From: a virus
IMG/VR virus record: IMGVR_UViG_3300031621_000012
Location: 1-39,930 of that record
DNA length: 39,930 nucleotides
Direction: 5' to 3' (one strand)
Notes under the pieces: generated by a model
Seen by the model: only the letters and a program-made list of their open reading frames with translations
Told to the model about the DNA's origin: nothing
The model's database searches: none
Translations under genes and position numbers: made by a program
Shown: positions 1 through 39,930 of the stretch, in pieces
How the letters are laid out: every line of letters begins with the position of its first letter
How positions within the stretch are numbered: the stretch's first letter is position 1

Positions 1-127
1 GTGATGTGATCGTCTGATAGGTAGCCTACGTTCATCGCAAACGAGTGAGTCTTCGGTGATTCAGCGGTGATTTTCTTGCCCTCGTAGAGTATACGAAACG
101 CCTTTTCCTTGTTAGCATTGTAAGTGC
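1..127. repeat. terminal overlap, left copy
   Basis: These 127 bases are identical to the last 127 bases of the window (39804-39930). The copy lies inside one continuous reading frame that crosses the joint. A perfect repeat of exactly 127 bases fits the k-mer overlap left by an assembler on a circular graph better than a biological terminal repeat. It does imply a circularly permuted or terminally redundant genome of about 39,803 bp. The real T7-type direct terminal repeats would be collapsed in such an assembly, and their position cannot be read here. Confidence 0.95.
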
Positions 128-422
128 AAACGCTGACTGACTCGGCTGTCTTGCCTTGCTTAAAAGCATGTATACAGTTCTTGGTATCGATCCTGTTACG
201 TTCCCATTTGTTATTCGGTGATAAGGCTGAGAGAACGCTAGCTACTATGTAAGGATCGACTCGATAGGTCATACCGAGTTCTTTACAGAACTGCTGTGCT
301 TCTGCATACCATGCTCTGCCAGCTCTGACGTGATCGTCGGTAGCTTTGGCAAACCAGCTGTGGATATTACGCTTGATTTGAGTGTCGCTGAGAGATACTA
401 CGCTTCGTTTTTCGGTGGTCAT
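1..422 (-). CDS. early phage protein, N-terminal part (gene split by contig ends)
   Basis: This is the 5' part of a 203-residue gene that continues at 39803 and stops at 39614. The ATG at 422-420 follows an A/C-rich leader (CACACAATT) with no Shine-Dalgarno sequence. The first 140 codons are here. Visible segments include WYAEAQQF near residue 38, then VASVLSALSPNNKWERN and, past the joint, ITIDKWHIRA. That spacing of an ALSP-N-W-RN block, a K-T-xx-F block and a D-x-W-xxR block recalls phage proteins with a helix-hairpin-helix, DNA-glycosylase-like fold, but this is only a resemblance from memory. It is the first gene of the early block, so a host-takeover or DNA-binding role is possible. Function is not assigned. 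Confidence 0.85.
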   Translation of the reverse strand, partial: MTTEKRSVVSLSDTQIKRNIHSWFAKATDDHVRAGRAWYAEAQQFCKELGMTYRVDPYIVASVLSALSPNNKWERNRIDTKNCIHAFKQGKTAESVSVCTYNANKEKAFRILYEGKKITAESPKTHSFAMNVGYLSDDHI

Positions 423-1273: not shown

Positions 1274-2959
1274 TTATATCCAAGAGGACTCTGGTCTATT
1301 TGTTCTCTTATAGTAGGTATCCACGAATTTACTTAGCTCTTTGCTAGCTGTATCTTCTCTTCGTTCCTTAATCTTCATGTCTGCGTCTTGAGCCATTTGT
1401 TCTACCCAGTAGTTACAGGCTATACTAAGAGCATCTAGTCTATCGTCGTTCCTTAAGGCTCCTCTGAGTCTTGTTAGTCTAGTCAACTGATACATCATCA
1501 TGTATCTTAGGTGTTGTTCTGCTGGATACTTCTGAGCTGACTTGTAGTCGTTCTCAATAACAGAGGGTGCTATAACGAGCCTATGGGCTGCTAGGAGAGG
1601 CTCAAGGGTGTCTATGATCCGTTTCTCTTTCTGTTGATGGTGACGTACCTCTTCAAGACTGACAGGGTATTCTCGGCTAAATATGGGCGTTATGAGTTGG
1701 TTGAACATACCATCACCGAAGTTACTCTCCGTAATGACAGCATTTACCTTGTTCCTCTTAGCAATGCGGACTAGTTCTAGCAAGGTAGGTTCTTCGTAAC
1801 CTCCTTTGAGTCCACCAGCTTCTGGAACATACAAGGTGCCATTACACATCTTTACTACAGCATACCCAGTCTCATCCTTACCTCTACCAGAGGGGTCGAT
1901 GGACATCACTGAACCAGTGTAAGGTATCATGTCACCTAGAATCTTCATAGGTCTGTAGAACCTGTCACCTCTTAGTCCTACGTTGGGTAGCCTGTCCCAC
2001 TCTAGCTCAGGTGTCTGCGCCCATACTAGCTTCTCTGGCGCAACATCTTGGTCAATGTCTTGCACAACCAAGTTGCCAAGTTTAAGAGGATAACGGTCAA
2101 GGTCAGCAAGGTTAGGGTTGAGCATGAACTGCATCGCGTAACCAGCTGAGCCATAAGATATTTTTCGCTCTTGCAAATCAAAATCTGTAAAGCGCGTAGG
2201 TTCGGCAGAATCGCCTTGGGTATCCTCATCTATACAGAGGGTAGACAGGGTATCGCCATATGTGTTCATCGCCTTCTTAGGGTCTACCTTCTCAGCAGAC
2301 CACACCTTGGACGTAAACCCTCTCTCTTGTAGTTTACTGTAAAGGCTGTCCTCACACTGAGGCGTACCTAGAACAAGTATACGAGATGTCTTATTAGGCT
2401 TAATGATGGCATCAAATTCTTTAATCTGTTCTGACAGCTTGTCTCTCATCTGCTGTGTAGCAGAGTTGTTTGCTACCTCAACGTCATCCGCAATGATGAT
2501 GTCAGCACGAGAACCTGTCAGCTGGGAAGTTATTCCCAAGCTCTTAACACTAGGTGCGTGAGAGGCTCCAGAGGGTCCTACGTCAAACGATACCTTAGAG
2601 AATCTCTGGTCAGCATGGGGCTTCAAGAAACTCAGAATAGGGATGTCATGAATCAGTCTCAACGTGAACGTAGAGAAGTCATCAGAACGTGTCTTCGATG
2701 CAGAGACAACTAGGATGTTCTTAGAGGGGTCTAGGAACAACTGATGTACTACGAACGCAGAACAAATCCAAGACTTGCCAACTCCTCGAAAGCCTTGCAC
2801 CACAGCCCGCTTTGGACCATGCTGCATGAAATCAGCTATATCGTATTGTATGTCAGTTGGGTCACGCTTGATCTGTTCTAGCGAGTGCCAAATGTAATAC
2901 AGGAAGTTTCTGAAGTCTTTAAGTTCGTTAGGTATTTGTGGCTGCTCTTGGCTCATCAT
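1274..2959 (-). CDS. terL: terminase large subunit (T7 gp19-like)
   Basis: The 561-residue ATPase/nuclease that cuts concatemeric DNA and pumps it into proheads through the portal. The ATPase P-loop GFRGVGKS is at residues 56-63 and a Walker B segment IIIADDVE at about 154-161. The C-terminal RNase H-like nuclease begins with MSIDPSGRGKDETG at about 350, and a later acidic block DRLDALS completes it. Length is close to T7 gp19. It starts at ATG ATG inside the end of the small terminase gene (32-base overlap), so the two are translationally coupled. It is the last large gene of the late operon. Confidence 0.95.
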   Translation of the reverse strand: MMSQEQPQIPNELKDFRNFLYYIWHSLEQIKRDPTDIQYDIADFMQHGPKRAVVQGFRGVGKSWICSAFVVHQLFLDPSKNILVVSASKTRSDDFSTFTLRLIHDIPILSFLKPHADQRFSKVSFDVGPSGASHAPSVKSLGITSQLTGSRADIIIADDVEVANNSATQQMRDKLSEQIKEFDAIIKPNKTSRILVLGTPQCEDSLYSKLQERGFTSKVWSAEKVDPKKAMNTYGDTLSTLCIDEDTQGDSAEPTRFTDFDLQERKISYGSAGYAMQFMLNPNLADLDRYPLKLGNLVVQDIDQDVAPEKLVWAQTPELEWDRLPNVGLRGDRFYRPMKILGDMIPYTGSVMSIDPSGRGKDETGYAVVKMCNGTLYVPEAGGLKGGYEEPTLLELVRIAKRNKVNAVITESNFGDGMFNQLITPIFSREYPVSLEEVRHHQQKEKRIIDTLEPLLAAHRLVIAPSVIENDYKSAQKYPAEQHLRYMMMYQLTRLTRLRGALRNDDRLDALSIACNYWVEQMAQDADMKIKERREDTASKELSKFVDTYYKRTNRPESSWI

Positions 2960-3321: not shown

Positions 3322-3326
3322 AATTT

Positions 3327-3875: not shown

Positions 3876-3898
3876 ATATCATTTTTTGGGGTTAATTT

Positions 3899-5197
3899 TT
3901 AAGATAAGGCGTGGAACTCCACATTGGCAGTTATTGAGGCGTTGGTATTTTGATCGGTTAAGCTTATAGACCAAGAAGCTCCTTTCTTAATAGGAATTGT
4001 TGCCGTAGCATACTTATTTCCATCGGTGAGGGTAGCACTATTTAAGTACTGTTTATAGGTATGTCCATCCGCAACTATCGTGGCTAAACCTCCATAATAA
4101 TACGCGCTACTACCAGAACCCCATTGCGCACCATTAATTTGTATCACCAAGAATCCAGATGATGGAGCTGTACCTGAATTACCGACAGCGGAAGGAGATG
4201 ACAAGCTTGGGCTACTAGCATCCACATAAGCCTTGATACTCGAAGAGCTAGCCAACGAGGTTGTTGACACACCAGAGGTCATCGTGTCATCATCTATAAC
4301 CTCAGCGAGTTTACTTGTTGGAATACTTCCAGCAAGTTTATCTTCTGTAATGCTTCCAGCTAACTGTGCGTTAGTAATACCACCTGCTAGTTTATCCTGA
4401 GTGATACTCCCCGCTAACTCTGAATTAGTAATGCTAAGTCCTGCTAGTTTATCCTGTGTGATACTCCCAGCTAGTTTATCGTTAGTTACACCAAGGTCTT
4501 TAATCTCAGCCTTGTTAACACTTGTAAGTCCAATCGTTACGTCATCCACCGAGACCGAACTAGCGGCACTAGCGGCTGTTACTACAACAATCTTAGAACC
4601 ACTTGGAGGCGCGGCTGTTCCTTTAAATTCTATTGTAGAGTTAGTCATACTAATCTCATAGGAATCTATAGGCGACTGCATCACACCATCAATAGACACA
4701 CGATAAGCCTCCTCTTTTTCTGTTTGAGGAGTAAACGCTGTGAGACTAAACACTTTAGTTGCTCCGTCGCCTGTAAGGGCTTGGCTTGCAAAGTTTGACA
4801 GACTTGTACCTGCTTGTAGACCTTGGGTAGCGATTGCGGCAAACTGAGAAGTACTAGCATCTTCGGCTATCTCTTGTGCCACAAACAGTCCTTGTTGGTA
4901 AGCTGTATCTAGGTCACTCTCGGATAGTCGTGAGCCGTTCTGGAAGTCTACTAGCTGTGCTGTAGAAGTAGCACGATACAACCGAATTTTTGTATAAGAA
5001 GCAGCGGGGGTATCAGCCAGTGTAACCGTCTTGTTTATTGCGTCTGTAGGACTAGATGCGTCTAGCGCGAGTGGAGTCCACTTGCTCCCATTAAATCCGA
5101 TTACATTTACATCGTTGATGATGATGTATTTGAATGGCACGTTGTAGGTTGTAGCGGATAGTTCTCCACTGCTGTATTCTTTATATGATTGTGGCAT
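3899..5197 (-). CDS. tail fibre protein with T7 gp17-type N-terminal domain
   Basis: A 432-residue protein. The first ~150 residues (MPQSYKEYSSGELSATTYNV, with LYRATST and DLDTAYQQGLFVAQEI) match the T7 tail-fibre N-terminal domain that docks on the tail. A middle section of tandem about 11-residue repeats of the form ITxDKLAGS, at about residues 235-300, suggests a trimeric beta or coiled shaft. The C-terminal domain from about 330 is serine/glycine-rich and probably binds the host. ATG at 5197 follows an AAGGA Shine-Dalgarno sequence. It is the first of two fibre genes, after the large internal core protein. Confidence 0.85.
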   Translation of the reverse strand: MPQSYKEYSSGELSATTYNVPFKYIIINDVNVIGFNGSKWTPLALDASSPTDAINKTVTLADTPAASYTKIRLYRATSTAQLVDFQNGSRLSESDLDTAYQQGLFVAQEIAEDASTSQFAAIATQGLQAGTSLSNFASQALTGDGATKVFSLTAFTPQTEKEEAYRVSIDGVMQSPIDSYEISMTNSTIEFKGTAAPPSGSKIVVVTAASAASSVSVDDVTIGLTSVNKAEIKDLGVTNDKLAGSITQDKLAGLSITNSELAGSITQDKLAGGITNAQLAGSITEDKLAGSIPTSKLAEVIDDDTMTSGVSTTSLASSSSIKAYVDASSPSLSSPSAVGNSGTAPSSGFLVIQINGAQWGSGSSAYYYGGLATIVADGHTYKQYLNSATLTDGNKYATATIPIKKGASWSISLTDQNTNASITANVEFHALS

Positions 5198-5217
5198 GAT
5201 TATTTTTCCTTGTTAAT

Positions 5218-8200
5218 TTATGCGTCTAGCAATGCTTGTAATGTTTCGGTTGATGCACCTCTTTGTGCTTGAGTGTTGATAGAGCGCATACGTTTGTACT
5301 CTCGTTCGATTTCTGGAAACTCTTCCATCATCAAACTTAGAGAGCGCGAACGATACTTACTCATTACTTTATTGATAAGTTGTACTCTAGGACTCTTTAA
5401 TGCTCCGTCAGTGAGTGGAGAGAGTCGCTGGTAACGTTTGCTACTAATTAACTTCTCAAGTTCTTGTCGAAGAGTTTTGCCTCTGATCTTTGTGTCACTA
5501 AGAAGTTCTAAGCGTCTGTCGTAGGCAGACTGTCCTTTATCATTAACGAACTCCGTCATGTCGATACTACGGTCAAGTGTTGTGCTTGTCTGTGTAAAGC
5601 CATGTTCAAGTGATGCTAGTTCTTCAAACACTACGTCACCGTCTCTTGTAGAGATAGCTGAAGGATTGAACGGACCAACGAATGGAATCTGTTCCATGAT
5701 TACAGGCTCACCTAAGATGTTACGTTTAGGGTCTAGGTTGTCGTTACCCATTGGTAGCTTCTTCATAAATGCGTCACTGAGGCTGCGGACTTCTCTCAAA
5801 GTCGTGTCACCCATAACGGATTGACCTTGATAGAGAACGTTGGGAACAAACCCACCAGCAATGTTTCGGACTGCTCGTTCCATCTTACGGTCTGGCTCTG
5901 AGATAGCATCAGTCAGGAATTTAAGACCTGCTAGGTAAGACTTCTCAGTTACGTTACGAGATAGAGAGATAGAGGCTGCTGCAAACATCTGCTCAGCCAG
6001 CGTTGTGTTACTACTGGCGTGGTCGTCCAACTGCTCAACAATATCTACAAGGACACCAAAGTGTGTGCCGAGAGGATCGAGACCCGCAAAGCCAGCATAC
6101 TTGTTTCCAAACTTGAGTGAATACTTTTGCCATCCTGTAGCTTCAAGAGTCTTGCGTTGTGCGGTATCTTTTGGACCACCGCCCGTGATAAAGTCACGGT
6201 TTGCCATAATCATATAAATCAACGTGCTGTTGATCATAACAGATGTAGCAATCTTACCTCTTGTTCGTGCAACCTCGATAGGGTTACGAGACTCTAGCTT
6301 CATACGCAACTCATCTTGAGTTCGCTTGAGCATTGGCATGTCAGGCATCATAGCAAGTGCGCTACGTCCTGCATCCATTGCGCCACCTGATGCTCGATCA
6401 AATGAGAACTTCAGAATGTTTACTGGAGTACGAATGAACGGAAAGATTAAACGTAGCGGAGGAACTTTAGAAGTCATGGCTTGTGCCAAGTCTGCAAACG
6501 CACCTGCATCGTTTGTGAATGTACCGTAACGTGCTTGCTCTAGTGAGCGAGCTGCTACGTTGTCAATGTCAGAGATGTTCTCTATTCCGAGTCCACCTTC
6601 CTCAACTGACTTTAGCATGTCTGCGCGTTTGTTCGTCTCTTCGCCTATGATACGATTCACTTCGGAACCTCTCTTCTGTGGAGACATTGGTTTCTTACCA
6701 CCAGCTACAAGTGCGTCATCCATCTTCTTGACGGTTGCTTGTGCAAACTTCATGACACCTGCATCAGAGAACGCACGTTCACCATCCACAAGGACAGCGT
6801 CCATACCTCTCATGACATACTCGGTCAATGCGTCAGGGTCTTTGATTCCTAACTTCATGCCTTTGAGTGTCCACTCCATCTTTGCGTTCGAGCGGAACAG
6901 AGATTGCTTAAACACTTCGTCCATCGCCATGAGGGTCTTAGCTGGAATGTTAACAACATTCTCACTGAACCAATTCATGGAGTTCTTCATCGTTTCTTCA
7001 GGAGCAGCATTATCAAAGTATTTTGGAATACCAGTGTTTGCTGTGTTCTCAAGTGGGTTACGTCCGATGTCTAACAACTGGTCTTTCATCGAATACACAT
7101 CTAAGAAATACTTCATAGACTCACGGAACGATTCAAACGTTGACATTTCTTTCAGCACCATACGAGTGATGGCTGGGTCTACAGATAGTCCACCGATTGC
7201 TAGCTCTGTTTGGAGAAGGGTCTGGGTAACCATGTTACCAACACCATTCTTCATCATAGTCCTTGGACCAGATAGTAGGGAGTTGATGAACCAGTTCTGT
7301 GCCATCTCCATGAACTTGCCACCTTCGGCAGCGCGTCCTGCTTTAACGACACCAAGCATCTGGTCAATCATATCCTTAGCGGATGCGTTCTTAGGGTCAC
7401 CACCTGCAAGAATAATTCTGTTAATTAGGACATCAAAGTTCTGCTTCTCTCCTTTGTTGCTAGCCATGTATTGGTTAACAATCTCTTGAGAGCGTCTCTC
7501 TGCTGCTGATAGACTTAGCTTAGTTCTGGCGAACTGTGTTGACTGTAGACCTTGACCAAATCCTCGACGGAGGTTGGAGCCAGCAGCAACTAGGTTCAAC
7601 ATCTTCTGGATGTCTCCCATTAGTTCTGCTCGGTCTGCGTCAGTAGCTTCAGCACTTTGCGATGCAATCTTCTTAGCTTTCTCTACGATGTCAGCACCTT
7701 GCTGAACAGCGATAGATTCTACTGTGTACATACGAGCTGAAATTCTACGAAGCGCAGCTGCGTCTTTACCTGCTGCTCGAACTTCTGACTCAACTATGTC
7801 AATCTTTTGACCAGACATCTCAGCACTACGTCTTGCTTGCTCAACTGCCTGAACGATACCGCCACCCTTAAGTCCATCAGAACCTTGTAGCTTACCATCT
7901 TCGTAGAAGCCTATGCTTCCAGTCTTTTCCATTTCCTCTAGGACTTGCGTCTCTGCCTTCGCTAATACTTCGCCAAGGTCATAAGCTGATTCAACTTCAC
8001 TAATAGCTTTGACGGTTCCTTTAACAGCAAGCGTACCGCCTCTGTTTTCTATAGTGATTTCTGGTCTACCTTCGCCTGACTTCTGGAAGAAACGATTCTC
8101 GTTTATCCGCGCACCTCTTGATTTGATAGGATTTCCATAAGGAGTCTTATAACTTTCTATAGAATGCTTGCGGTTCTGCTTACTAATTAGGTCAGCAAAG

Positions 8201-11169
8201 TTAGCGACTGTGTCTCCTAGTAATGTTCCCTTAGCGTCAACGCCCATAAAGTCTTTCAAGACTTGTATAATATTATCCCATAGAGTTGTGTCGCCAGTCT
8301 TAACACTTCTTAAGTAGTTCTGGAACTTAGTGTTGCTCATGGCTTCAGCCAAGAACTCGTCTACGTTAGTAAGACCATACCACTCTCCAATACGCGAACG
8401 CATTCCAGAGCTGTCCAAGAAACCTGTGGCATCATTCAAGCTGCCCATGATTCCTTTAAACTCATCAGGGGCGTTATCAAGAGCAGTCTTATAGCTCTCT
8501 AGTAAACGCTTGAGCGGAGGAGCTGTGTCAGCACTGGCGATGAGTTCATCAACCTTTGCTAAATAGTCAGCTCCTTTAAGGTTACTGATTGTAGATATTT
8601 CTGGTGGGATGAAACGAACCTGAGCTGCGTGTGTTATTTCATGAAGCAGCGTTGCTTCTGTAAACACGGCATCTCTTGCCATTTCTCCCTGCGATATTTT
8701 TGTACGGTTCGAGTAAAGCTCGATGTTTTGTTGGTTTCCTTTGAACCCAAACGAACCAAATGAGTCAGAGTCTTCTATAATAGTACGAACAGTTGTTTCA
8801 AGAAACTCGTTGTCCTTTCCTAAAATTTCTAAAAGACCAGCTGCTATGTTCTTAACTTGAGGTGTCGATCCATTCTCAGCAAAACGCTCTAGTGCAAACT
8901 TAGCGTTTGTCTCTCCAGCAATGTTTCCAGAAAAGTCACGCTCCATTCCCACAACTTCCTTGTCGTTTATGTAACGAAGTGCGGGAAGCTGCATTACTTG
9001 CGCGAGGGCTGAATCGGTAATCTCTCCGCTATTCTTTGCTTCATCACCAGTCATCAATCCCCATGTGCGAATCTCCTTTACGGAGTTCCTCATGCCATCG
9101 TTTAGTTCGATAGAGAAAGAATCTTTAGGGTTGTCAAAGTATTTAGATGAAACCTCTGGGTTGTATTTTCTGAAGTGTCCAATTAAAGTTTCTTCAAGTA
9201 GATCAAGAATATCATCATTTTCCAGAACGTTATACGCTTGTGATTTTAAGTCGTTAAAAGTTTCCAAGAAATTAAGGTCATCTAGAACGTCTTCATCTAA
9301 ATTAAGTTTATCTAGTTCATTATAAAAATCTGCAATAAAAGCTTTTTCAGCAAAAACTGTCCGACCTCCTCTACGAACTTGAGCTTGTCTCCATTGATAA
9401 AATAAATCAGAATCATTAAAGCCATCGAGTATATCGCTGGGGTTTTCTAAAAGGTCTTGTTCTTTTAAAGTTTTTACAAGATCATCATACTCGCCTTTAA
9501 GTGTTTTTGGACCCTTTGCCCTGTCTGTCTTAGACATTCCAACCTTACCGCCAAAAGGTTTAGCCACTTTGTTGACAGCAGAAACCATTTTATCTTTGTA
9601 TTGGTTGTAACTCTTAGCATCTTGGCTGACCGCAAAGTCTTGTATCTCATCCCCTTCTTTAGTAAGTCTTTTGTTTAAAGTTTCAGAGGCATTCTTACCG
9701 AATACGTTTTCTGAATCTTCCGCATTCTTTACTATTTTTGTGACTGTTTCCCCGTCTGCCTTTGTGATGTCGTAAGATCGACTACCGTCCGCATTGAGAG
9801 CATTTAGTTTAATGTTATCAACTGTTGTGCCATACAGCGAAGCAATCTGATTCGGAGTAGACCACGATACTCTATCATAACCTTCCTTCGCAGCTAACTG
9901 CATTATCATACGCATAGATGCGGGTATGTAACTATCTTCTAGAGGTAGCTTACCTTTATCAATCGCTCCGTCTCTGATAGCTTGACGTTTTCCTTGAAGT
10001 ACGTCCGATTGAACTTCTTCAACATAAAGAACCCTTTGATTTGTATTTGCGTCTGTGCGGTCTGTAGTTCTAAAGTGTAGAAGAGTGTTATCCTTGAAGT
10101 GCTGGTTAGCATTATAAAGTCTAGCTTGTGATGAAGTTCCATCGCCAGCTTGTAAAACAAACTCACGGTAGTTATCTCCCCCTTCTTGATTTCCTAACCT
10201 TTCATAAGTTTTATTGGTATCTAGACCACTACGCTCTTTAAGCATATACTTAAACTGGTTCTCATTTAAGAACTCATCAACTTCTTTCTGTGTAACACGA
10301 TCCTTACCTTTTGATTGCGCCCAGTCATCGAAGCCCATCCAGCGTAACTCTTCAGCTGTGCCTTTCTCACCAAACTTGATAAGCTCTTTCTCCATGACAT
10401 TAACAGGAACAGATTTATTCTTGTCTATTCTCTTGGACTGAGTGAACACATTCTTAGATGCTTTAACGGCAGGACTGTAATCCTCTACTTGCACAGTTCT
10501 AATTTGTTTGAAGTCCATGCCTTCACCAATCTTCTTGGCTCCCACCGCATCGCCTCCTTTGAATTTCTTGTGCGCTCTAAGAGCCAGACCGAACGTACCC
10601 GCCATAGCTCCAGTGATGCCTAGACCTTCTAAGGTATTCTTGAAACGACCTTCGAGTTCTGAGTCATCACCGTCTGCTGCTAGGTATTCAGTGACAGGAT
10701 TAGCTACGGATGGGAAAGCTTGTATTAGATTAGAGAGACGTTCTTCTTGTGCGTCGAACGCTACAAAGTCTGTAGCTGCTTCGGATGCTAGAACACCTTT
10801 CCAATTCAAGACTTCTTTACCCTTCTTGTTTACCTTCATGAAAGGCTTGGCAAACTTAGTAGCCTTACCAGCTGCGCTGAGACCTTTAGATATAGCACCG
10901 TAGGGAACGAGGAACTGCGTGATACCTTCAACAAGAGAGCCAGCAATAGTCTCTGATCTGCCTAAGAAACGGTTATCATAGTCTGGTAGGTAATCAAATG
11001 TTGCCCAATCAGCTAATTGATAGACACCTTGGACCGCTCCTTCAACACCTCGAAACGGTGCAGCGAGGATGTCCTTGACCATGCTGGGGTCTTTTTGGTT
11101 CTGTATCAGCTCATCTCCACCGTTATTAATGTTTTTGAGTATTTCGTCTGTGTTTAATCCAAGTGCCAT
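5218..11169 (-). CDS. very large internal virion/ejection protein (T7 gp16 position) with zincin motif
   Basis: A 1983-residue protein in the place of T7 gp16 (1318 residues), so far longer than that family. Visible pieces in order are: an N-terminal region of about 200 residues; a polyvalent-protein-type segment with YVEEVQSDVLQGKR near 380; LLHEITHAAQ at about 841-850, an HExxH zinc-metallopeptidase motif; long helical stretches with coiled-coil potential (1100-1350); a segment GPRTMMKNGVGNMVTQ; and a C-terminal half with hydrophobic helices (SVMINSTLIYMIMAN) like ejected membrane-channel proteins. No T7-type N-terminal transglycosylase was recognised. It should be ejected into the cell with the neighbouring core proteins. 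Confidence 0.8.
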   Translation of the reverse strand: MALGLNTDEILKNINNGGDELIQNQKDPSMVKDILAAPFRGVEGAVQGVYQLADWATFDYLPDYDNRFLGRSETIAGSLVEGITQFLVPYGAISKGLSAAGKATKFAKPFMKVNKKGKEVLNWKGVLASEAATDFVAFDAQEERLSNLIQAFPSVANPVTEYLAADGDDSELEGRFKNTLEGLGITGAMAGTFGLALRAHKKFKGGDAVGAKKIGEGMDFKQIRTVQVEDYSPAVKASKNVFTQSKRIDKNKSVPVNVMEKELIKFGEKGTAEELRWMGFDDWAQSKGKDRVTQKEVDEFLNENQFKYMLKERSGLDTNKTYERLGNQEGGDNYREFVLQAGDGTSSQARLYNANQHFKDNTLLHFRTTDRTDANTNQRVLYVEEVQSDVLQGKRQAIRDGAIDKGKLPLEDSYIPASMRMIMQLAAKEGYDRVSWSTPNQIASLYGTTVDNIKLNALNADGSRSYDITKADGETVTKIVKNAEDSENVFGKNASETLNKRLTKEGDEIQDFAVSQDAKSYNQYKDKMVSAVNKVAKPFGGKVGMSKTDRAKGPKTLKGEYDDLVKTLKEQDLLENPSDILDGFNDSDLFYQWRQAQVRRGGRTVFAEKAFIADFYNELDKLNLDEDVLDDLNFLETFNDLKSQAYNVLENDDILDLLEETLIGHFRKYNPEVSSKYFDNPKDSFSIELNDGMRNSVKEIRTWGLMTGDEAKNSGEITDSALAQVMQLPALRYINDKEVVGMERDFSGNIAGETNAKFALERFAENGSTPQVKNIAAGLLEILGKDNEFLETTVRTIIEDSDSFGSFGFKGNQQNIELYSNRTKISQGEMARDAVFTEATLLHEITHAAQVRFIPPEISTISNLKGADYLAKVDELIASADTAPPLKRLLESYKTALDNAPDEFKGIMGSLNDATGFLDSSGMRSRIGEWYGLTNVDEFLAEAMSNTKFQNYLRSVKTGDTTLWDNIIQVLKDFMGVDAKGTLLGDTVANFADLISKQNRKHSIESYKTPYGNPIKSRGARINENRFFQKSGEGRPEITIENRGGTLAVKGTVKAISEVESAYDLGEVLAKAETQVLEEMEKTGSIGFYEDGKLQGSDGLKGGGIVQAVEQARRSAEMSGQKIDIVESEVRAAGKDAAALRRISARMYTVESIAVQQGADIVEKAKKIASQSAEATDADRAELMGDIQKMLNLVAAGSNLRRGFGQGLQSTQFARTKLSLSAAERRSQEIVNQYMASNKGEKQNFDVLINRIILAGGDPKNASAKDMIDQMLGVVKAGRAAEGGKFMEMAQNWFINSLLSGPRTMMKNGVGNMVTQTLLQTELAIGGLSVDPAITRMVLKEMSTFESFRESMKYFLDVYSMKDQLLDIGRNPLENTANTGIPKYFDNAAPEETMKNSMNWFSENVVNIPAKTLMAMDEVFKQSLFRSNAKMEWTLKGMKLGIKDPDALTEYVMRGMDAVLVDGERAFSDAGVMKFAQATVKKMDDALVAGGKKPMSPQKRGSEVNRIIGEETNKRADMLKSVEEGGLGIENISDIDNVAARSLEQARYGTFTNDAGAFADLAQAMTSKVPPLRLIFPFIRTPVNILKFSFDRASGGAMDAGRSALAMMPDMPMLKRTQDELRMKLESRNPIEVARTRGKIATSVMINSTLIYMIMANRDFITGGGPKDTAQRKTLEATGWQKYSLKFGNKYAGFAGLDPLGTHFGVLVDIVEQLDDHASSNTTLAEQMFAAASISLSRNVTEKSYLAGLKFLTDAISEPDRKMERAVRNIAGGFVPNVLYQGQSVMGDTTLREVRSLSDAFMKKLPMGNDNLDPKRNILGEPVIMEQIPFVGPFNPSAISTRDGDVVFEELASLEHGFTQTSTTLDRSIDMTEFVNDKGQSAYDRRLELLSDTKIRGKTLRQELEKLISSKRYQRLSPLTDGALKSPRVQLINKVMSKYRSRSLSLMMEEFPEIEREYKRMRSINTQAQRGASTETLQALLDA

Positions 11170-31784: not shown

Positions 31785-32352
31785 CCACTACAGATTCGAG
31801 AGACTCACCACCGCTAGAGAAACCTTCTTCTTCAGCTGTAAATCCAAACGATGAAGCTCCTGCGCCCGAAGCACTAGGTGCTACAAGCTCGATGATTTGT
31901 AGGGCTTTGAGTTGGAGGCTTATACCGAACCCAAGGCTTGGGCTATACCAAGTGTATGGCTTGATTGCCATCTTCACTTTAGAACCACCACCTACTTCAA
32001 CGTCACAAGCTTTACCTTGAGCATCGAAGAGTTTAATGTTGAACTCATACACCTCACCAGTGCGGGAGTTCTTACTCTTAGCTTTTTGTTTACTGCGAAT
32101 AATCCACTGACCATCTTCAGTTTGTTTAACAGGGAATGCATCGCAAACACGAATCTTTTTACCTGTCTTCTTTTCTTCCATCTCGTGAGCTTGGTCACGG
32201 ATAGCCGTCATCTGAGAGGTGAACTCTTTAGCTTCACCTTCTGTTACTACGATGTCACAAGAATATGCGCCATCAGGATCGAACGTAGTGTTCGGTTTAT
32301 TTACGTGTGGGTAACGTGCTGTACCCACCATTGTTGTTATGGTATCATTCAT
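31768..32352 (-). CDS. single-stranded DNA-binding protein (T7 gp2.5-like)
   Basis: A 194-residue protein in the T7 gene 2.5 position. A predicted OB-fold body (GTARYPHVNKPNTTFDPDGA, then aromatic strands such as KPYTWYSPSLGFGISLQLKA) is followed by a serine/glycine-rich linker and an acidic tail ending in phenylalanine (VVGDGDF). That is the gp2.5 C-terminal signature which contacts polymerase and helicase. Its ATG overlaps the RNA polymerase stop by 4 bases (ATGA). Confidence 0.92.
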   Translation of the reverse strand: MNDTITTMVGTARYPHVNKPNTTFDPDGAYSCDIVVTEGEAKEFTSQMTAIRDQAHEMEEKKTGKKIRVCDAFPVKQTEDGQWIIRSKQKAKSKNSRTGEVYEFNIKLFDAQGKACDVEVGGGSKVKMAIKPYTWYSPSLGFGISLQLKALQIIELVAPSASGAGASSFGFTAEEEGFSSGGESLESVVGDGDF

Positions 32353-34766
32353 GAGAATATGTACTCCGATTTATATATGTTGTTTATGTTGAATGTCCCC
32401 TTCACTGGAAGAGGGTCTAGTTTTACTCCGTGCTTATTTTCTAAAGAGTCTTTCAACTCTTGAAGTAGGTCAGGTGTAAATTGTTTAACGAACACATCAC
32501 GTATAGTAGCTGCAAGTTCATTGCACTTAGTTGTGTGTGTAGCCATCGAGTCGTGAACCATTGCGAAATCTCTGACATTGAAATTGGTAGCAGACTCATT
32601 GACTGTCGAGTGTAAAATTGAGGCATCAAGTGAATGGATATAATTAGGGGATGCACCTTGTGCTTGTCGCTTGGCGCATAGCTTGTCTGTGTCCTCACGA
32701 AAGCGTACTCGCATAATCTTGTCACCAAGTTTCGTCTTAATTGATTTAGTTTCCCACTTCATGTAGGACTGGTGACAAGGAAAACCACTCGGTGATACCC
32801 AGTAAAAAGGTTTGTCTTCTTGTGCTAAGATACGAGCTGTAGATTGTAACCAAGCCATAGCCTCTCTCGGTTTACCAACGACATCGTTGATGCCTTGCCA
32901 TACTTTACCAGCTAGGTAAGCAGTAGCTTGAAACTTATCCGTCTCATCGAACGGAACATCTTCTCTCTTGCGTGATGTCTCGCCATACCAGTCGCTGATG
33001 TATTGTCGGCATGAGTATAGAGTAGAGCCATAGCTCTGTGTCATTGTCGGTCTCTTACAAGCTGCTCTATCTATACCGTAGGATAACCACTTGTCAGCAT
33101 AATCAGAGTCTCCATCTTGTTTAAGGAACTCAATAGTTTTGTCCGCTACAATACCGTAGATGTCTTGTGGGTAGTTGCTTGGTGCAACGTTCGTAGCTAA
33201 GCAGGAAGGTTCGTCACGTGTAAGAACACCCAACAACTGTAGTCCGTTGTTACTTGCATCCATCGCACACGGAAGGGTTGTCATGAAGCCAACACCTGTA
33301 GCCATGTAGTCTGCCCACTCAAAGCAGAACGCAAGGAACTGAAATGGTTCATCGCACTCGCGCCACAAATCAACGTGAGCCATTGGATCTTTGGCTATCT
33401 TAAATATATTATGTCGGTTCTCTTCTACCCAATCAACGCGCTGAGTGAATGTTCCTTTGATACCGTAGCAGTTGGCTCCGTGTATAGCTAACCACTCGAC
33501 ATCGTTATCGTCTTTAATTTTTTCACCTCTAGCAAAAGTTAGTAGGCTCTTCTGGAAGTCGGCTCCCATGTGGTTGACGTAGCTAGGCACCGCATAGCAT
33601 CTGCCCCTGAAGTCTGTCTGGTGTGGAAGGTAGAACTTCTTGTCTCTATATTTCTTAGCAAGCCACTGCGTGTTGAGTACAAGGAGCCGTCTACTCTTTG
33701 TAGCTGCGTTGTGATCATAGATTGCAGCAGCTCTACGCTTCCACATCTTCTTCTCAATAGGATCACAATCATCTGACGGGTAGGGTGGTAGCTCTTCGTC
33801 TTCCCGTTGGGGAATGCCATCTACATCTATGCCCTGCTCCCAAGTCTGGTGTAATACATTAAGAACTCGTTGGTTAATCTGCCAAGGTGTATTCTGTAAC
33901 AGATTAACTGCGTTCATAACATCAGTCATAGGCTCTGTGTTCTCACGCAAGAAAGCTTTGTCTCTTGTTTTAATAAACGGTAAGGGTGGTAGTCCAGACT
34001 CGATCTCGTATCCACCTGACCACTTGTCTACCCACTGCTTTGGAAAATCTATCAACGGCATCCAGAAAGGACACAACAATTCGTTGTCCTTCATCATGTC
34101 TTCAATCCATTCAGATGTCTTGTCTGATGCGGTAACAAATCGAGCGGGTCCTCGCTTGCCTGTTGCTATCATGACGTAATCAATCAGACCTGTTGTAGTT
34201 CTGATCGTATCAATTAACACAGTGCCTACGTGTAACTTGATGCGCGTTCCCCAACGCTCCCACTCATCCGTCTCACCCTTTGCGGCTTCACCCTTCTCAG
34301 ACTTAATCAGGTAGTATCGTTTCTTGCGATAGCTCTCTCTGCGTTTAGCTCCTTGTAGTATGCCTTGCCACTGCGGGTGGTTACTGAAGTGAGCGAACCT
34401 AACCTCGTCTTCGACTAGTGCGCCTATGCGTACAGCTGCGGATGCTAGTGTGCGCTTCTGAGTAATAGAATCTAGTATAGATTTAAGAGCTATGAAGGCA
34501 GCTGTCTTGGCTGGAAGTTCTTGGAGCTTGTAATAAGCGTTCCCTGCAATGGGTGCTTTCTCTTGTTGTTTCTCCCACGATTCCAGACCATCGACGAGCG
34601 GAGGAAGTGCTGCCTTCAGTAGCCGTTGACCATACGGTGTTTCGCATTCGCTTTCCCTACGTCTGCTAGAATCAATCTTAGATCGAAAACGGTTTACACC
34701 ACCCTCGAGCATATCATTCTCTATCGGACGGTTTTGGGACGGAAACGTCTCACGAATTGACTGCAT
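32349..34766 (-). CDS. single-subunit DNA-directed RNA polymerase (T7 gp1-like)
   Basis: An 805-residue enzyme. Catalytic motifs line up with T7: MDASNNGLQ with D503 (T7 D537), KRPTMTQSYGS with K571 and Y579 (T7 K631, Y639), and HSLDAS with D714 (T7 D812). It transcribes the replication and virion genes from phage promoters. It is about 80 residues shorter than T7 RNAP. The ATG has no Shine-Dalgarno sequence. It lies downstream of the integrase module and a tRNA, as in integrase-carrying marine podoviruses, so its expression may depend on read-through from that module. Confidence 0.97.
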   Translation of the reverse strand: MQSIRETFPSQNRPIENDMLEGGVNRFRSKIDSSRRRESECETPYGQRLLKAALPPLVDGLESWEKQQEKAPIAGNAYYKLQELPAKTAAFIALKSILDSITQKRTLASAAVRIGALVEDEVRFAHFSNHPQWQGILQGAKRRESYRKKRYYLIKSEKGEAAKGETDEWERWGTRIKLHVGTVLIDTIRTTTGLIDYVMIATGKRGPARFVTASDKTSEWIEDMMKDNELLCPFWMPLIDFPKQWVDKWSGGYEIESGLPPLPFIKTRDKAFLRENTEPMTDVMNAVNLLQNTPWQINQRVLNVLHQTWEQGIDVDGIPQREDEELPPYPSDDCDPIEKKMWKRRAAAIYDHNAATKSRRLLVLNTQWLAKKYRDKKFYLPHQTDFRGRCYAVPSYVNHMGADFQKSLLTFARGEKIKDDNDVEWLAIHGANCYGIKGTFTQRVDWVEENRHNIFKIAKDPMAHVDLWRECDEPFQFLAFCFEWADYMATGVGFMTTLPCAMDASNNGLQLLGVLTRDEPSCLATNVAPSNYPQDIYGIVADKTIEFLKQDGDSDYADKWLSYGIDRAACKRPTMTQSYGSTLYSCRQYISDWYGETSRKREDVPFDETDKFQATAYLAGKVWQGINDVVGKPREAMAWLQSTARILAQEDKPFYWVSPSGFPCHQSYMKWETKSIKTKLGDKIMRVRFREDTDKLCAKRQAQGASPNYIHSLDASILHSTVNESATNFNVRDFAMVHDSMATHTTKCNELAATIRDVFVKQFTPDLLQELKDSLENKHGVKLDPLPVKGTFNINNIYKSEYIFS

Positions 34767-34848: not shown

Positions 34849-34922
34849 TTTTGAGTCCGATGGTGTGGTAGGTGTGAGAGGACTCGAACCTCCAAATCAT
34901 TACTGACAGTAGATTTTGAGTC
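34849..34922. other. attachment-site candidate: duplicated tRNA-Leu anticodon-loop segment
   Basis: The 9-base sequence GACTCAAAA (minus strand) occurs twice 65 bases apart: in the anticodon loop of the tRNA-Leu gene (34914-34922) and just past its 3' end (34849-34857, in the context ATCGGACTCAAAACCCGTTG). Tyrosine integrases often exchange strands within a tRNA anticodon loop. Marine podoviruses of this type carry attP between int and the RNA polymerase gene. Which copy, if either, is attP cannot be decided without a host sequence. Confidence 0.35.
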
Positions 34923-34951
34923 TACCGTGTCTACCATTCCACCACACACCC
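34866..34951 (-). tRNA. tRNA-Leu (anticodon CAA)
   Basis: An 86-base cloverleaf. The acceptor 5' strand GGGTGTG pairs with CACACCT (one G-U), followed by discriminator A and an encoded CCA. The D-arm is GTGGAATGGTAGACAC. The anticodon stem GTAGA/TCTAC encloses CTCAAAA, giving anticodon CAA for UUG codons. A long variable arm typical of Leu is present, and the T-arm is GGAGG-TTCGAGT-CCTCT. It lies between the integrase module and the RNA polymerase gene, and may be a translation aid or part of the integration site. Confidence 0.93.
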
Positions 34952-34994: not shown

Positions 34995-35192
34995 TTATTC
35001 CTTTTCATCCTGATTGATTAAGACTCTCTCCTGTAGCCTCTCTACTTTCATCCTGAGCTTCTCAATATCTTTATTGAGTAGGTCATTCTGAGTAGACAAG
35101 GCATCACAGGCTTTAGTCATGGCGTTGAGTCCTTTGACCAGAACCTTCTCGGTATCTGGACGGAACAGTTGAACGGTTGATTTATTAGGCAT
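34995..35192 (-). CDS. small coiled-coil protein after integrase
   Basis: A 65-residue protein. Polar start MPNKSTVQLFRPDTEKVLVK, then a heptad-like helix (NDLLNKDIEKLRMKVERLQE) predicted to form a coiled coil, and an acidic end. It overlaps the integrase stop by 8 bases, so it belongs to the same operon. It could be a recombination directionality factor or an oligomerising accessory by location, but it shows no excisionase-like winged helix and is not recognised. Confidence 0.65.
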   Translation of the reverse strand: MPNKSTVQLFRPDTEKVLVKGLNAMTKACDALSTQNDLLNKDIEKLRMKVERLQERVLINQDEKE

Positions 35193-36285
35193 TAGTATTT
35201 TGCTTACGTTTTTTATTTAGTGTATCGAGCGCATCAAAGACAGCATCTGGAGATAGCTTAGCGTATCGCATGGTGACTTGTATAGACTTGTGTCCCATCC
35301 AGCTTTTGACAGCGAGTAGTGGGACGGATGCTTGCACTAAGCGAGTAGCACAAGTGTGTCTACACAGGTGAGGAACAAATTCCTCGTCCTCCATGTAGCC
35401 TAGTATATCACGAACGTTGTTCCATTGTGTGCGTATGTTAGATTTTGTGTAGTTGAATAACTTATTATTACGGAATGTAATAGAGGCTACGCTATGATCT
35501 ATGCTAGGATGGTTAGAGGATGGGTCAAGCCCATTCCACTTATTAGTAATGATTTCCACAACCTCATCCGATAGTGGCACGATACGCATCTCACCATTCT
35601 TAGTTCTGTAGTCGTGACCTCTCGCCCATACATACATCTTCCATCTGCCTGATTCCTTCACGACATCTTTGTATTGCACTCGGCATAGCTCGCCCGTGCG
35701 TAGACCTGTGTCTATGAGAACCTTAACGAACCCAGCGAAGTCTTCCTGTCCTAGCCTCTTGTTGGTGGACACGATCATCTCTTCCTCTTCAGGCGAGAAG
35801 TATCGTAGCCTACCTTCGGATGCTTTGTATCGCTTGAACTTAGGCACGTTACGTATCCACTCCCTGTCGTGTGCATACTTAAGGCATACCATTAGAGCTG
35901 ACATCTTGTTGTTGATGGTGCCGTTACTGTTGCCTTGGCTCTTCAGTGCCTGAATGATTTCATCAATCACTATGGTATTGATTTCCTCTACCCTAAAGTT
36001 GGTGCCTATAATCCGCTGGATTAATTCTACATTACGTAAGGCGTTAACCCCGTTAGCTGTGTCCTTCCAGACCGCTTCGTAAACTGTATCAGTTAAACCT
36101 CTTAGGGTTAGGCTCGCATTCTTGGAGCTAAGTATGTGCGTTACGTTAAGACCTAGTTTACTTCTGTGTTCTAGGTTGTTAACAAAGTCTTCAGCATCTG
36201 CCAGACTCTTGAATAATCTACGGACTCGCTTACCCGCTACGTGTGCGTCCGCTTGCCAGCTCTTTCCTCTTTTTCTGATCTTCAT
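35185..36285 (-). CDS. int: tyrosine-family site-specific integrase
   Basis: ATG at 36285 has a GGAGG Shine-Dalgarno sequence 6 bases upstream and gives 366 residues; the frame opens further (36327) but without a good start. An N-terminal arm-binding AP2-like region (KIRKRGKSWQADAHVAGKRV) is followed by a SAM-like core-binding domain and the catalytic domain. The catalytic residues are R196 in TGLRTGE, K229, H306 and R309 in HLCRH, H332 in GHKS and Y341 in TMRYAKL. All are present, so it should be active. It integrates the phage, probably at a host tRNA gene. It overlaps the regulator by 56 bases. Confidence 0.95.
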   Translation of the reverse strand: MKIRKRGKSWQADAHVAGKRVRRLFKSLADAEDFVNNLEHRSKLGLNVTHILSSKNASLTLRGLTDTVYEAVWKDTANGVNALRNVELIQRIIGTNFRVEEINTIVIDEIIQALKSQGNSNGTINNKMSALMVCLKYAHDREWIRNVPKFKRYKASEGRLRYFSPEEEEMIVSTNKRLGQEDFAGFVKVLIDTGLRTGELCRVQYKDVVKESGRWKMYVWARGHDYRTKNGEMRIVPLSDEVVEIITNKWNGLDPSSNHPSIDHSVASITFRNNKLFNYTKSNIRTQWNNVRDILGYMEDEEFVPHLCRHTCATRLVQASVPLLAVKSWMGHKSIQVTMRYAKLSPDAVFDALDTLNKKRKQNTNA

Positions 36286-36610
36286 CGTTTTCCTCCGTGT
36301 GTGTGTGTAGACAGGCATCGTTCTCAAGCTCTAACATACGTAGCTTAAGGTTCTTACCTGCTTGTGTCATGTGTAAATTGCACTGCCTTTTATCGTGCGG
36401 GTATTTATCCTCATATATAAGGTCTTTCTTTTTTAAAGAAGCTAAACCTCTGGATACCTGAAGCTTGGAGAACTCAGTATCCTTTATGATACGACCGCAC
36501 CTGACCTCAGTATAGTTACTATCAGCTATAGCTAGAAAAATCCTATATTCACAGGCACTTAGTGAAGCCGTAAGCTCGTAGCGTTCTATATATCCCTTGA
36601 GTAATCCCAT
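36230..36610 (-). CDS. winged-helix (MarR-type) regulator of the integrase module
   Basis: The chosen ATG at 36610 gives 126 residues; the frame is open to 36670, but that region contains the promoter. Residues 40-65 (RIIKDTEFSKLQVSRGLASL) form a helix-turn-helix. The segment LIYEDKYPHDKRQCNLHMTQ is the beta wing, followed by AGK as in MarR proteins. The C-terminus is basic. The start lies 7 bases after a -10 box, implying a leaderless mRNA. A perfect 7-bp inverted repeat overlaps that promoter, which suggests autorepression and control of lysogeny. Confidence 0.8.
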   Translation of the reverse strand: MGLLKGYIERYELTASLSACEYRIFLAIADSNYTEVRCGRIIKDTEFSKLQVSRGLASLKKKDLIYEDKYPHDKRQCNLHMTQAGKNLKLRMLELENDACLHTHTEENDEDQKKRKELASGRTRSG

Positions 36611-37408: not shown

Positions 37409-38395
37409 TTATGCAGACATCAAAGTCTCACCAGTGTTGATAAGCTCACGCCCTCTTGTGATGTGGAGTCGACGTGAACCTTCGGCAGACAGGGCATCTA
37501 AGGCATCTGCCTTTTGTATGGCACCTGCTCCTAGCTCTGACGAACGCCATACTGCGGAGCGATCTTTAGACGTATGGCGATCACCGTGAGTGAGTAGCTC
37601 CGTCACACCGTTGAACATGTCGTAGGCTGTCTGACCGCTGTTGCCTGTGCCACTGATGGCAAGTCGACGAGCCTCGTGAGCCTTGTTACTGCTCACAGTA
37701 GACAGCTTGTTGGACTTGTTGAAGAACGAAGTAGCCCAAGCAATCATCTCTGGATAAGCCATGCCAGACTCAGCGGTCTGGTTCAGCTTCTCGTAAGCAA
37801 CCCTGCGGTTGTTGAACATGGACTCAAGGTGTTGCATGACGTTCTCGAAACGCACCTCTGCATTCCTAGTGTGTCGCACCTTGAGCTTGAACGCTCTACC
37901 GCCTTGCTGTTTAGCCAGACGGAACGTATTCTGGCAGATCATACGGACACTAGTGTCGAACATCTCGAAGGCAGAACTGCCATCGTGAGAGCTGTAGAAC
38001 GTAACGTAGTTGTCGAACGCATCACCGTTGACCGTGAAGTCCTCGTCCTTGACCTTAGTCTGAACGAATACTCGACCACCGTCATGAGTGTATCCACCGC
38101 CAGCAACCTCGTGCTTGGTGCCATCCAGTGCATTGTGCAGTGCTTCCCAGATACGAGAGTTTTGAATTGGCTCGTAGCCTGCACCGACAACACCGATGGA
38201 CTTGTTAGTGTCTGAGCGGTTGATGCTGACGTGAGTGTCGATAGGTAGAGGATACTTGCCCTCTAGCAGAGCTACCATAGGAGTCTTTTGAACGTCCCAG
38301 TTAAGACCGATGTCCTCAACAGAGTTGATGGAGTCAGTGATTTTATTAGACCAGCCGTTTTGCTGGGTGTTTACGATGTATGTATCTTGTTGCAT
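37409..38395 (-). CDS. DUF932 / phage-plasmid-like protein
   Basis: A 328-residue protein of the DUF932 (TIGR03299-like) family. It shows VVGAGYEPIQNSRIWEALHN near residue 70, GGGYTHDGGRVFVQTKV, VTFYSSHDGSSAFEMFDTSV and RMICQNTFRLA near 150, and a C-terminal NGVTELLTHGDRHT. The family occurs on phages and plasmids, and its biochemical role is unsettled. The ATG has no Shine-Dalgarno sequence but an ACACACAC leader. A hammerhead ribozyme fills the gap to the upstream gene (38431-38486), so its mRNA 5' end would be set 65 bases before the start codon. Confidence 0.88.
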   Translation of the reverse strand: MQQDTYIVNTQQNGWSNKITDSINSVEDIGLNWDVQKTPMVALLEGKYPLPIDTHVSINRSDTNKSIGVVGAGYEPIQNSRIWEALHNALDGTKHEVAGGGYTHDGGRVFVQTKVKDEDFTVNGDAFDNYVTFYSSHDGSSAFEMFDTSVRMICQNTFRLAKQQGGRAFKLKVRHTRNAEVRFENVMQHLESMFNNRRVAYEKLNQTAESGMAYPEMIAWATSFFNKSNKLSTVSSNKAHEARRLAISGTGNSGQTAYDMFNGVTELLTHGDRHTSKDRSAVWRSSELGAGAIQKADALDALSAEGSRRLHITRGRELINTGETLMSA

Positions 38396-38430
38396 ATGCA
38401 GTGTGTGTATCTGATTATGTATAAGCTGAC

Positions 38431-38486
38431 AGGCTCGTCAGTGTTGGAAGATTACCAACAGACAGGGAATTAACCCTGTTTCGCCT
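38431..38486 (-). ncRNA. type II hammerhead ribozyme (copy 2)
   Basis: Read on the minus strand: stem II strand AGGC, then GAAA, then stem III CAGGG-TTAATT-CCCTG closed by the core A-U pair, cleavage triplet GTC, stem I TGTTGG-TAATCTT-CCAACA, core CTGACGA, and stem II strand GCCT. All conserved core bases of the hammerhead are present, including the G10.1-C11.1 pair. Stem II is the open one, hence type II. Predicted cleavage lies between 38461 and 38460. The first base is the last A of the upstream TAA. Downstream, CTGACG can alternatively pair with TGTCAG (38426-38441). Confidence 0.93.
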
Positions 38487-38662
38487 TAGTCAATTTTGTT
38501 GAGTGCCTCTATTATATCATCCTTGTCAAGTGCCTGTTTTTCGGATGGGATTTGCGCCTCTATTTTGGCGAGTAGTGTGGAGACAAGGTCGGCATGGTAT
38601 GCGTCCTTGGTTTTGAGCAAGCGATTGAGCTGTTTACAGGTGGATAGGATTTGATTGAGCAT
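38486..38662 (-). CDS. small helical early protein
   Basis: ATG at 38662 (AACATC ATG context, 5 bases after the upstream stop) gives 58 residues: MLNQILSTCKQLNRLLKTKD, a helical middle and an acidic end (KDDIIEALNKID). The frame is open to 38716, but that would overlap the previous gene by 50 bases. There is no Shine-Dalgarno sequence. Its stop codon touches the 5' end of the hammerhead at 38431-38486, so ribozyme cleavage would leave this gene's mRNA with the stem III hairpin at its 3' end. The function is unknown. Confidence 0.65.
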   Translation of the reverse strand: MLNQILSTCKQLNRLLKTKDAYHADLVSTLLAKIEAQIPSEKQALDKDDIIEALNKID

Positions 38663-38666
38663 GATG

Positions 38667-38909
38667 TTATATTTCTGGATATAAGGTGATGTAGGTGAAC
38701 TCTTCGTGTTTTTCAAAAGCTCCCTGTAAGTGCCATAGGTATGAGCTGGATACTGTGCAAGACATTACGTCTTCCTTCATTACGCCATAGCCGACCCAGT
38801 CTGGATCAGATGCCATCTCCTCGAACCAAGGTATGTTAGAGGCTGTAGCCCACTCCTCGAAGTCGGCACAAACTATGCCTGCTAGATATGTAATTACTCG
38901 TGTTTTCAT
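38667..38909 (-). CDS. small early hypothetical protein
   Basis: The preferred ATG at 38909 (AACATC ATG, 5 bases after the upstream stop) gives 80 residues starting MKTRVITYLAGIVCADFEEW, with an acidic and aromatic middle (WFEEMASDPDWVGYGVMKED) and a C-terminal YITLYPEI. The start shares its ATC-ATG context and lack of Shine-Dalgarno sequence with its neighbours. It is not recognised. Confidence 0.65.
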   Translation of the reverse strand: MKTRVITYLAGIVCADFEEWATASNIPWFEEMASDPDWVGYGVMKEDVMSCTVSSSYLWHLQGAFEKHEEFTYITLYPEI

Positions 38910-39383: not shown

Positions 39384-39533
39384 TTATTTAGTGGAGAATT
39401 TAAGAACGTATTCGCCCACTTGTCCAACTTCGTGACAACCGATTAGCTCGTCTTTGAAGTCGCGCCAAAATTGTAACATGTGTGCCTTTGTTGCGAATGT
39501 TTTTTTGTGTGTTTTCATAGTGTGTTTTTCCAT
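39384..39533 (-). CDS. small early protein downstream of hammerhead copy 1
   Basis: ATG at 39533 (ACACAATC ATG GAA AAA, the same context as the gene at 39364) gives 49 residues: MEKHTMKTHKKTFATKAHML, then QFWRDFKDELIGC and EYVLKFSTK. The frame is open upstream to 39647 but runs through the hammerhead ribozyme (39561-39610), so those codons are probably not coding. An ATG at 39518 is an alternative. After ribozyme cleavage the mRNA would begin 55 bases before the start codon. The function is unknown. Confidence 0.65.
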   Translation of the reverse strand: MEKHTMKTHKKTFATKAHMLQFWRDFKDELIGCHEVGQVGEYVLKFSTK

Positions 39534-39560
39534 GATTGTGTGCTGGTTAGTGTAGCTGAT

Positions 39561-39610
39561 GGACTCATCAGTGACGTAGTAAACGCCAGACCCATTTTTG
39601 GGTTTCGTCC
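39561..39610 (-). ncRNA. type II hammerhead ribozyme (copy 1)
   Basis: Read on the minus strand: stem II strand GGAC, GAAA, stem III CCCA-AAAA-TGGG closed by the core A-U pair, cleavage triplet GTC, stem I TGGCGT-TTACT-ACGTCA (one G-U), core CTGATGA, stem II strand GTCC. Every conserved hammerhead core base is present and all three stems are perfect apart from the wobble. Stem II is open, hence type II. Predicted cleavage lies between 39589 and 39588. It starts 3 bases after the TAA of the gene at 39614 and ends 27 bases before the next ATG. CTGATG can alternatively pair with CATCAG (39556-39571). Confidence 0.95.
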
Positions 39611-39613
39611 TTG

Positions 39614-39930
39614 TTATCGACCCCATGATTCTTTGATCGCTACCCATATGATAGCTTGATACTCGTAGCCAGTCATGCCAGCCGCACAGTCTACGGTTAG
39701 CGCCTCCAATCTACGATACTGTTTTGCCGTCACGCTGTCTACAGTTGGAACAACATCGTCCTCTGGAGTGCATAAGCAAGCTCTGATATGCCACTTGTCG
39801 ATTGTGATGTGATCGTCTGATAGGTAGCCTACGTTCATCGCAAACGAGTGAGTCTTCGGTGATTCAGCGGTGATTTTCTTGCCCTCGTAGAGTATACGAA
39901 ACGCCTTTTCCTTGTTAGCATTGTAAGTGC
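39614..39930 (-). CDS. early phage protein, C-terminal part (gene split by contig ends)
   Basis: This is the 3' part of the 203-residue gene whose start is at 422; bases 39804-39930 repeat 1-127. The visible C-terminal half includes MNVGYLSDDHITIDKWHIRA, then RRLEALTVDCAAGMTGYEYQ and IIWVAIKESWGR before TAA (39616-39614). Only 3 bases separate the stop from the hammerhead ribozyme, so cleavage would leave this mRNA ending in a GUC 3' end behind the stem III hairpin. See the entry at 1-422 for the family discussion. Confidence 0.85.
   Translation of the reverse strand, partial: TYNANKEKAFRILYEGKKITAESPKTHSFAMNVGYLSDDHITIDKWHIRACLCTPEDDVVPTVDSVTAKQYRRLEALTVDCAAGMTGYEYQAIIWVAIKESWGR
39804..39930. 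repeat. terminal overlap, right copy
   Basis: Identical to bases 1-127. It marks the closure point of a circular assembly; unique sequence ends at 39803. Confidence 0.95.

Follow-up and report, generated by a model that had tools for sequence, protein, structure and literature searches.

Why would a phage place a hammerhead ribozyme, an RNA predicted to cut itself, between two of its early genes? In T7, host RNase III cuts the early mRNA between cistrons, both ahead of the phage RNA polymerase gene and around it. The locus studied here belongs to an IMG/VR virus record (IMGVR_UViG_3300031621_000012), of which the whole 39,930-nt stretch was analysed and is called the window. Reading the letters alone, the original prediction had placed a complete type II hammerhead on its minus strand, within 50 bases between two early phage genes. 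Here, we describe this element (ribozyme 1) and a second one (ribozyme 2), and weigh what they may do in the early transcript. The coordinates of the features are collected in Table 1.

The 127-bp direct terminal repeat marks the contig as a complete genome, about 39.8 kb in size. Every large gene is encoded on the minus strand, and their order is T7-like, with early ORFs, integrase, tRNA-Leu, single-subunit RNA polymerase, primase/helicase, DNA polymerase, connector, capsid, tail and terminase. With its single-subunit RNA polymerase, this gene order and the terminal repeat, the window belongs to the Autographiviridae (T7-like) and is a complete integrase-carrying T7-like phage. Among described polymerases, the nearest belong to marine Autographiviridae, with 39% identity to MedDCM-OCT-S45-C18 and only about 33–35% to pelagiphages. 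The tRNA-Leu(CAA) gene (34866-34951, minus strand), located between the integrase and RNA polymerase genes, is possibly the attachment site; LUZ100 likewise has a tRNA-Leu next to its integrase, and exact-match scans of GTDB genomes for a host with the phage tRNA-Leu region gave no match. The genome also carries a perfect sigma-70 consensus promoter (TTGACA-16-TATAAT; 1151-1178, plus strand), which opposes all genes and is antisense to the terminase gene, and a very large ORF of 1983 aa (5218-11169, minus strand) within the structural region.

Table 1 Features of the 39,930-nt window and their coordinates.
Feature	Position	Strand	Remark
Direct terminal repeat, 127 bp	1..127	no strand	Identical to 39804-39930
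Terminase large subunit	1274..2959	(-)	On the early region's other side
T7-type single-subunit RNA polymerase	32349..34766	(-)	Marks the early region's end
Tyrosine integrase	35185..36327	(-)	
DUF932 gene downstream of ribozyme 2	37409..38395	(-)	Start 35 nt past the ribozyme
Ribozyme 2 3' tail, GUCAG	38426..38430	(-)	Complementary to core CUGAC
Hammerhead ribozyme 2, type II	38431..38486	(-)	Descriptor and independent covariance model
Predicted cleavage site of ribozyme 2	between 38461 and 38460	(-)	
76-aa ORF upstream of ribozyme 2	38486..38716	(-)	Ribozyme overlaps its stop codon
49-aa early gene downstream of ribozyme 1	39384..39533	(-)	Other genes take its place in relatives
Ribozyme 1 3' tail, AUCAGC	39555..39560	(-)	Core-complementary; alternative hairpin CUGAUG/CAUCAG
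Hammerhead ribozyme 1, type II	39561..39610	(-)	Core and stems, RNAfold, descriptor, independent covariance model
Ribozyme 1 stem II, 4 bp, GGAC/GUCC	39610-39607/39564-39561	(-)	
Ribozyme 1 GAAA	39606-39603	(-)	
Ribozyme 1 stem III, 4 bp, CCCA/UGGG	39602-39599/39594-39591	(-)	Plus A15.1-U16.1 pair
Ribozyme 1 GUC triplet	C17 = 39589	(-)	
Ribozyme 1 stem I, 6 bp, UGGCGU/ACGUCA	39588-39583/39577-39572	(-)	One G-U included
Ribozyme 1 CUGAUGA	39571-39565	(-)	
Predicted cleavage site of ribozyme 1	between C17 39589 and 39588	(-)	GUC position behind stem III
Early gene, 203 aa, upstream of ribozyme 1	39614..39930	(-)	Crosses the terminal repeat into 422..128

The minus-strand RNA of ribozyme 1 (39610-39561) reads GGAC GAAA CCCA AAAA UGGG U C / UGGCGU UUACU ACGUCA CUGAUGA GUCC. 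The whole hammerhead consensus claimed for this position is there, with the core bases, the three stems and the C39589/U39588 site, and so are the claimed distances of 3 bases from the upstream gene's stop (TAA, 39616-39614) and 27 bases to the next start (ATG at 39533). Its location between two early genes is confirmed as well, in the early region of a T7-like phage. In isolation, a 56-nt stretch with ribozyme 1 folds in RNAfold into exactly the three-way junction (-16.1 kcal/mol), and in a longer transcript an inactive alternative is the minimum-energy fold. Ribozyme 2, which the original prediction had not listed, reads AGGC GAAA CAGGG UUAAUU CCCUG UC UGUUGG UAAUCUU CCAACA CUGACGA GCCU (38486-38431), and it begins on the final nucleotide of the 76-aa ORF's stop codon. 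Both cores are in type II order (CUGAUGA/GAAA/GUC in ribozyme 1, CUGACGA/GAAA/GUC in ribozyme 2), stems I and III are loop-closed and stem II is open, and both elements are found in the early region, ahead of the RNA polymerase gene. Judged by their sequence, they are complete type II hammerheads for which self-cleavage is predicted.

Requiring 4-bp stems, a type II descriptor matched twice in the 40-kb window and not once in 20 Mb of sequence generated by a first-order Markov model of the window, which bears out the earlier statement that a chance origin is very unlikely. The Rfam type II model (RF02276), proposed at the same time as a check, did not find ribozyme 1: no hammerhead was reported in the window at the gathering score, which is a detection threshold and no defining feature of the hammerhead class, nor at E<=10. 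In a control phage contig (L149), Rfam passes 2 of 11 descriptor-found type II hammerheads at the cut-off; hence, the miss in the window reflects a sensitivity limit of the Rfam model. Rfam matches in the cultured phage HTVC109P are also sub-threshold. A covariance model built on 28 phage hammerheads, with the window's lineage left out, scored ribozyme 1 at 43.7 bits (E 3e-12) and ribozyme 2 at 54.3 bits (E 1e-15) in a search of the window, and gave no other match there. Whether ribozyme 1 is catalogued had been left open; its class is (Rfam RF02276, Perreault et al. 2011), but Rfam does not detect this copy.

The stems also covary. Among the hammerheads of other phages behind the covariance model, 129 alignment cells were changed on both sides compared with 35.5 after shuffling, 97.8% of cells were paired, and sliding the stem partners abolished the signal. 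An alignment of the window's lineage and pelagiphages, fitted to the covariance model, gave 103 double changes versus 24.5. Compensatory base changes were found in all three stems in both sets. The least biased evidence comes from three collection patterns in which the core and part of stem II were fixed and stems I and III unconstrained, because pairing of the latter was no selection criterion; all three stems form in 124 of 131, 151 of 162 and 86 of 113 matches to these patterns. Core, stems, covariation in relatives and the independent covariance model thus support the type II reading. An 87-aa frame does pass through ribozyme 1 in the window, but given the covariation and the empty 20 Mb of random sequence, we assign a negligible probability to a chance structure or protein-coding conservation. 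A coding origin of ribozyme 1 via this frame was rejected, as stops break the frame in three relatives (L004, L025 and L031).

Among contigs with a polymerase or DUF932 protein of 80–97% identity, those that include the early region each have one to four type II hammerheads. Ribozyme 1 and its upstream gene are conserved among relatives, with changes confined to loop III and the tail; the downstream gene differs in most of them, and the leader as far as the ATG remains similar. The site upstream of DUF932 has a hammerhead in 10 of 14 related contigs and cleanly lacks it in the remaining 4, so ribozyme 2 is dispensable. Its spacing to DUF932 is constant (35–36 nt) in ten contigs. In a single relative (L031, 5062-5111 and upstream), 24 nt are inserted between the conserved stop codon and ribozyme 1. 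Presence that varies among close relatives, together with near-identical cores scattered over many junctions, could be the mark of inert or selfish relics that spread with phage DNA through recombination and are functionless in the transcript. However, the stems carry compensatory changes and are conserved although the surrounding genes diverge, the core is intact almost everywhere, and strand and stop-codon position are fixed, all of which makes a relic very improbable.

The position of phage hammerheads relative to genes is highly regular. A same-strand ORF stop lies within 3 nt of the 5' strand of stem II in 63% of 223 phage hammerheads, compared with 2.5% of random positions, and with 6% when the opposite strand is considered, and the commonest layout is one in which stem II shares the stop codon's last base. 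Across 15 early regions, in which related genomes are counted repeatedly and counts are non-independent, a shared upstream gene with a different downstream gene went with presence of the ribozyme in 68 of 86 comparisons (79%), against 18 of 91 (20%) for a shared downstream gene with a different upstream one. This asymmetry links the ribozyme with the upstream gene's 3' end. It also bears on a role at the other end of the cut. RiboJ is a synthetic part that serves as a 5' insulator, and cleavage in the phage might similarly provide the downstream gene with a constant 5' end. Such a role would suit the fixed spacing before DUF932 and the similar leader behind ribozyme 1 despite downstream gene swaps, but a ribozyme that goes with the upstream and not the downstream gene makes it unlikely. 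The idea that hammerheads mark gene-order breakpoints was unsupported, with next-gene conservation of 57% at hammerhead junctions and 43% elsewhere. Some phage contigs carry dense arrays: L149 packs eleven type II copies into about 5 kb (2224-7239), nearly one per gene, and L043, L046 and L144 have further arrays.

Hammerheads also occur in cultured pelagiphages. HTVC109P has type II copies at 563-621 and 2325-2378 and type I at 1107-1162; Eistla EXVC025P has type I at 8789-8843 and 10043-10102 and type II at 9264-9326; HTVC031P has type III at 291-341 and 40981-41031, type II at 1301-1361 and type I, with one 3-bp stem, at 2073-2151; HTVC142P has type I at 665-724 and type III at 39624-39675; and HTVC019P has type I at 2950-3006 and type III, with one 3-bp stem, at 972-1028. 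As in the window, these hammerheads are intergenic in an Autographiviridae early region and mostly at or near stops, whereas types I and III beside type II set the pelagiphages apart. Strict matches are confined to the early region and the bordering genome end, and matches elsewhere in cultured phages need one mismatch allowed. The regions scanned of several T7-like relatives (HTVC105P, HTVC121P, HTVC200P, HTVC120P, CRP-125, CRP-361, LUZ100 and MedDCM S45-C18) gave no strict match. In HTVC109P (MH598805.1; locus L157), the annotated starts of gp03 (589) and gp05 (1121) are probably misannotated because they lie inside the hammerheads at 563-621 and 1107-1162. A literature search for hammerheads in pelagiphages or T7-like phages, with most subscription papers and preprints outside its coverage, returned nothing relevant.

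Our preferred explanation, to which we give a probability of roughly 0.78, is that both elements are active type II hammerheads that cut the polycistronic early mRNA of this marine phage directly behind stop codons, at the place where T7 has its RNase III sites. The analysis shows the architecture, the covariation, the stop-codon position, the shared strand, the confinement to the early region and the inheritance with the upstream gene; actual cleavage, mRNA stabilization and the comparison with RNase III are what we infer. The ribozymes would mature each early message with no need for a protein nuclease. Cleavage of a type II hammerhead would fall between two closed hairpins, stem III and stem I, and the upstream mRNA would therefore end in stem III and the downstream mRNA start with stem I. 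By established hammerhead chemistry, the upstream 3' end would carry a 2',3'-cyclic phosphate behind the stem III hairpin, and the 5'-OH of the downstream message would be blocked by the stem I hairpin. Resistance to nucleases is expected of both ends, to 3' exonucleases for the former and to the 5'-phosphate-dependent RNase E for the latter. The ribozyme would be part of the upstream gene's 3' end and move along with that gene.

The sequence past stem II suggests that cleavage might in addition be controlled. In short-loop-I hammerheads this tail is often RUCAG, the complement of the core CUGAY. Among 376 clusters, the base at position 7 and the tail covary (P = 8e-8; C7 with 14 GUCAG versus 1 AUCAG, U7 with 29 AUCAG versus 4 GUCAG), and the covariation was replicated in a separate sample (P = 8e-4), both P values being optimistic as the sequences are related. 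Core–tail helices scoring at least 5 occur in 55 of the 376 clusters (about 15%) versus 8.5 (maximum 15) with shuffled tails. The stem III and upstream controls were not enriched in these clusters, nor was an extension of stem II by tail and upstream sequence. The core-complementary tail in about 15% of hammerheads is possibly new. Large-loop-I hammerheads have a loop I–tail pseudoknot (37 of 376 versus 6.6 shuffled), which is common but not obligatory in type II, and no loop I–tail pairing of at least 4 was seen in the window ribozymes.

Predicted folds of the 3' products of both window ribozymes contain two abutting hairpins, with the core–tail hairpin beside stem I, and the core–tail hairpin competes with stem II. 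It could inactivate the ribozyme or lock its product, and may time cleavage or block re-ligation. A ribozyme regulated in this way would cleave only during synthesis, or after ribosomes leave the stop, and then be locked off by pairing of its tail with the core CUGAY; in a variant, the hairpin forms only after cleavage and prevents re-ligation. The replicated covariation, the enriched helices with flat controls and the adjoining product hairpins argue for such timing, which we regard as possible but short of probable, since the tail feature occurs in a minority of hammerheads and the ribozyme 2 tail can extend stem II instead. Close relatives of ribozyme 1 (L004 and L025) have the tail AGCAAG and no hairpin, and the hairpin is therefore not obligatory. 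More tentative still is a division of type II into two architectures, one with a loop I–tail pseudoknot and one, represented by both window ribozymes, with a core-complementary tail as a built-in switch. Cleavage would then be limited to a short window of transcription, or to the moment a ribosome clears the overlapping stop codon, and the hairpin would lock the core against further cutting or re-ligation and cap the 5' end of the next message.

The elements form no new class, as their kind has been known since 2011. Perreault et al. 2011 had already found type II hammerheads in phages and suggested that they process mRNA (PMC3088659), and phage hammerhead clusters cleave in vitro and in E. 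coli, with processing into gene-length mRNAs as their proposed role (PMC3088659). The preferred reading, self-cleavage of the early mRNA between cistrons, is consistent with this proposal. The window ribozymes share with the RF02276/Perreault class the order GAAA - stem III - UH - stem I - CUGANGA, the open stem II, all core bases, the occurrence in phage genomes in several gene-flanking copies and the proposed processing of long RNA. They differ from the Perreault consensus in the short loop I, the missing loop I–tail pseudoknot and the core-complementary tail, are missed by the Rfam model, and lie in a T7-like early region as opposed to prophage contexts (PMC3088659). To what was known, the present data add a second copy, regular early-region use that includes cultured phages, the association with the upstream gene and the tail complementary to the core.

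By analogy, self-cleaving intercistronic processing would replace RNase III sites in the early mRNA. Like those sites in T7, the ribozymes would cut early mRNA between cistrons and leave the upstream message with a 3'-terminal hairpin; unlike in T7, the RNA is predicted to cut itself without a host nuclease, leaving a 2',3'-cyclic phosphate and a 5'-OH. The number of hammerheads in phage genomes is probably underestimated, given that the Rfam model misses such copies. Their role has been a question since their discovery, and regular, stop-anchored elements in the early region make their purpose testable. Pelagibacter is among the most abundant marine bacteria, and the existing phage–host system suits such tests. 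If cleavage proves true, these phages would mature their early mRNAs by RNA enzymes where T7 relies on a host protein.
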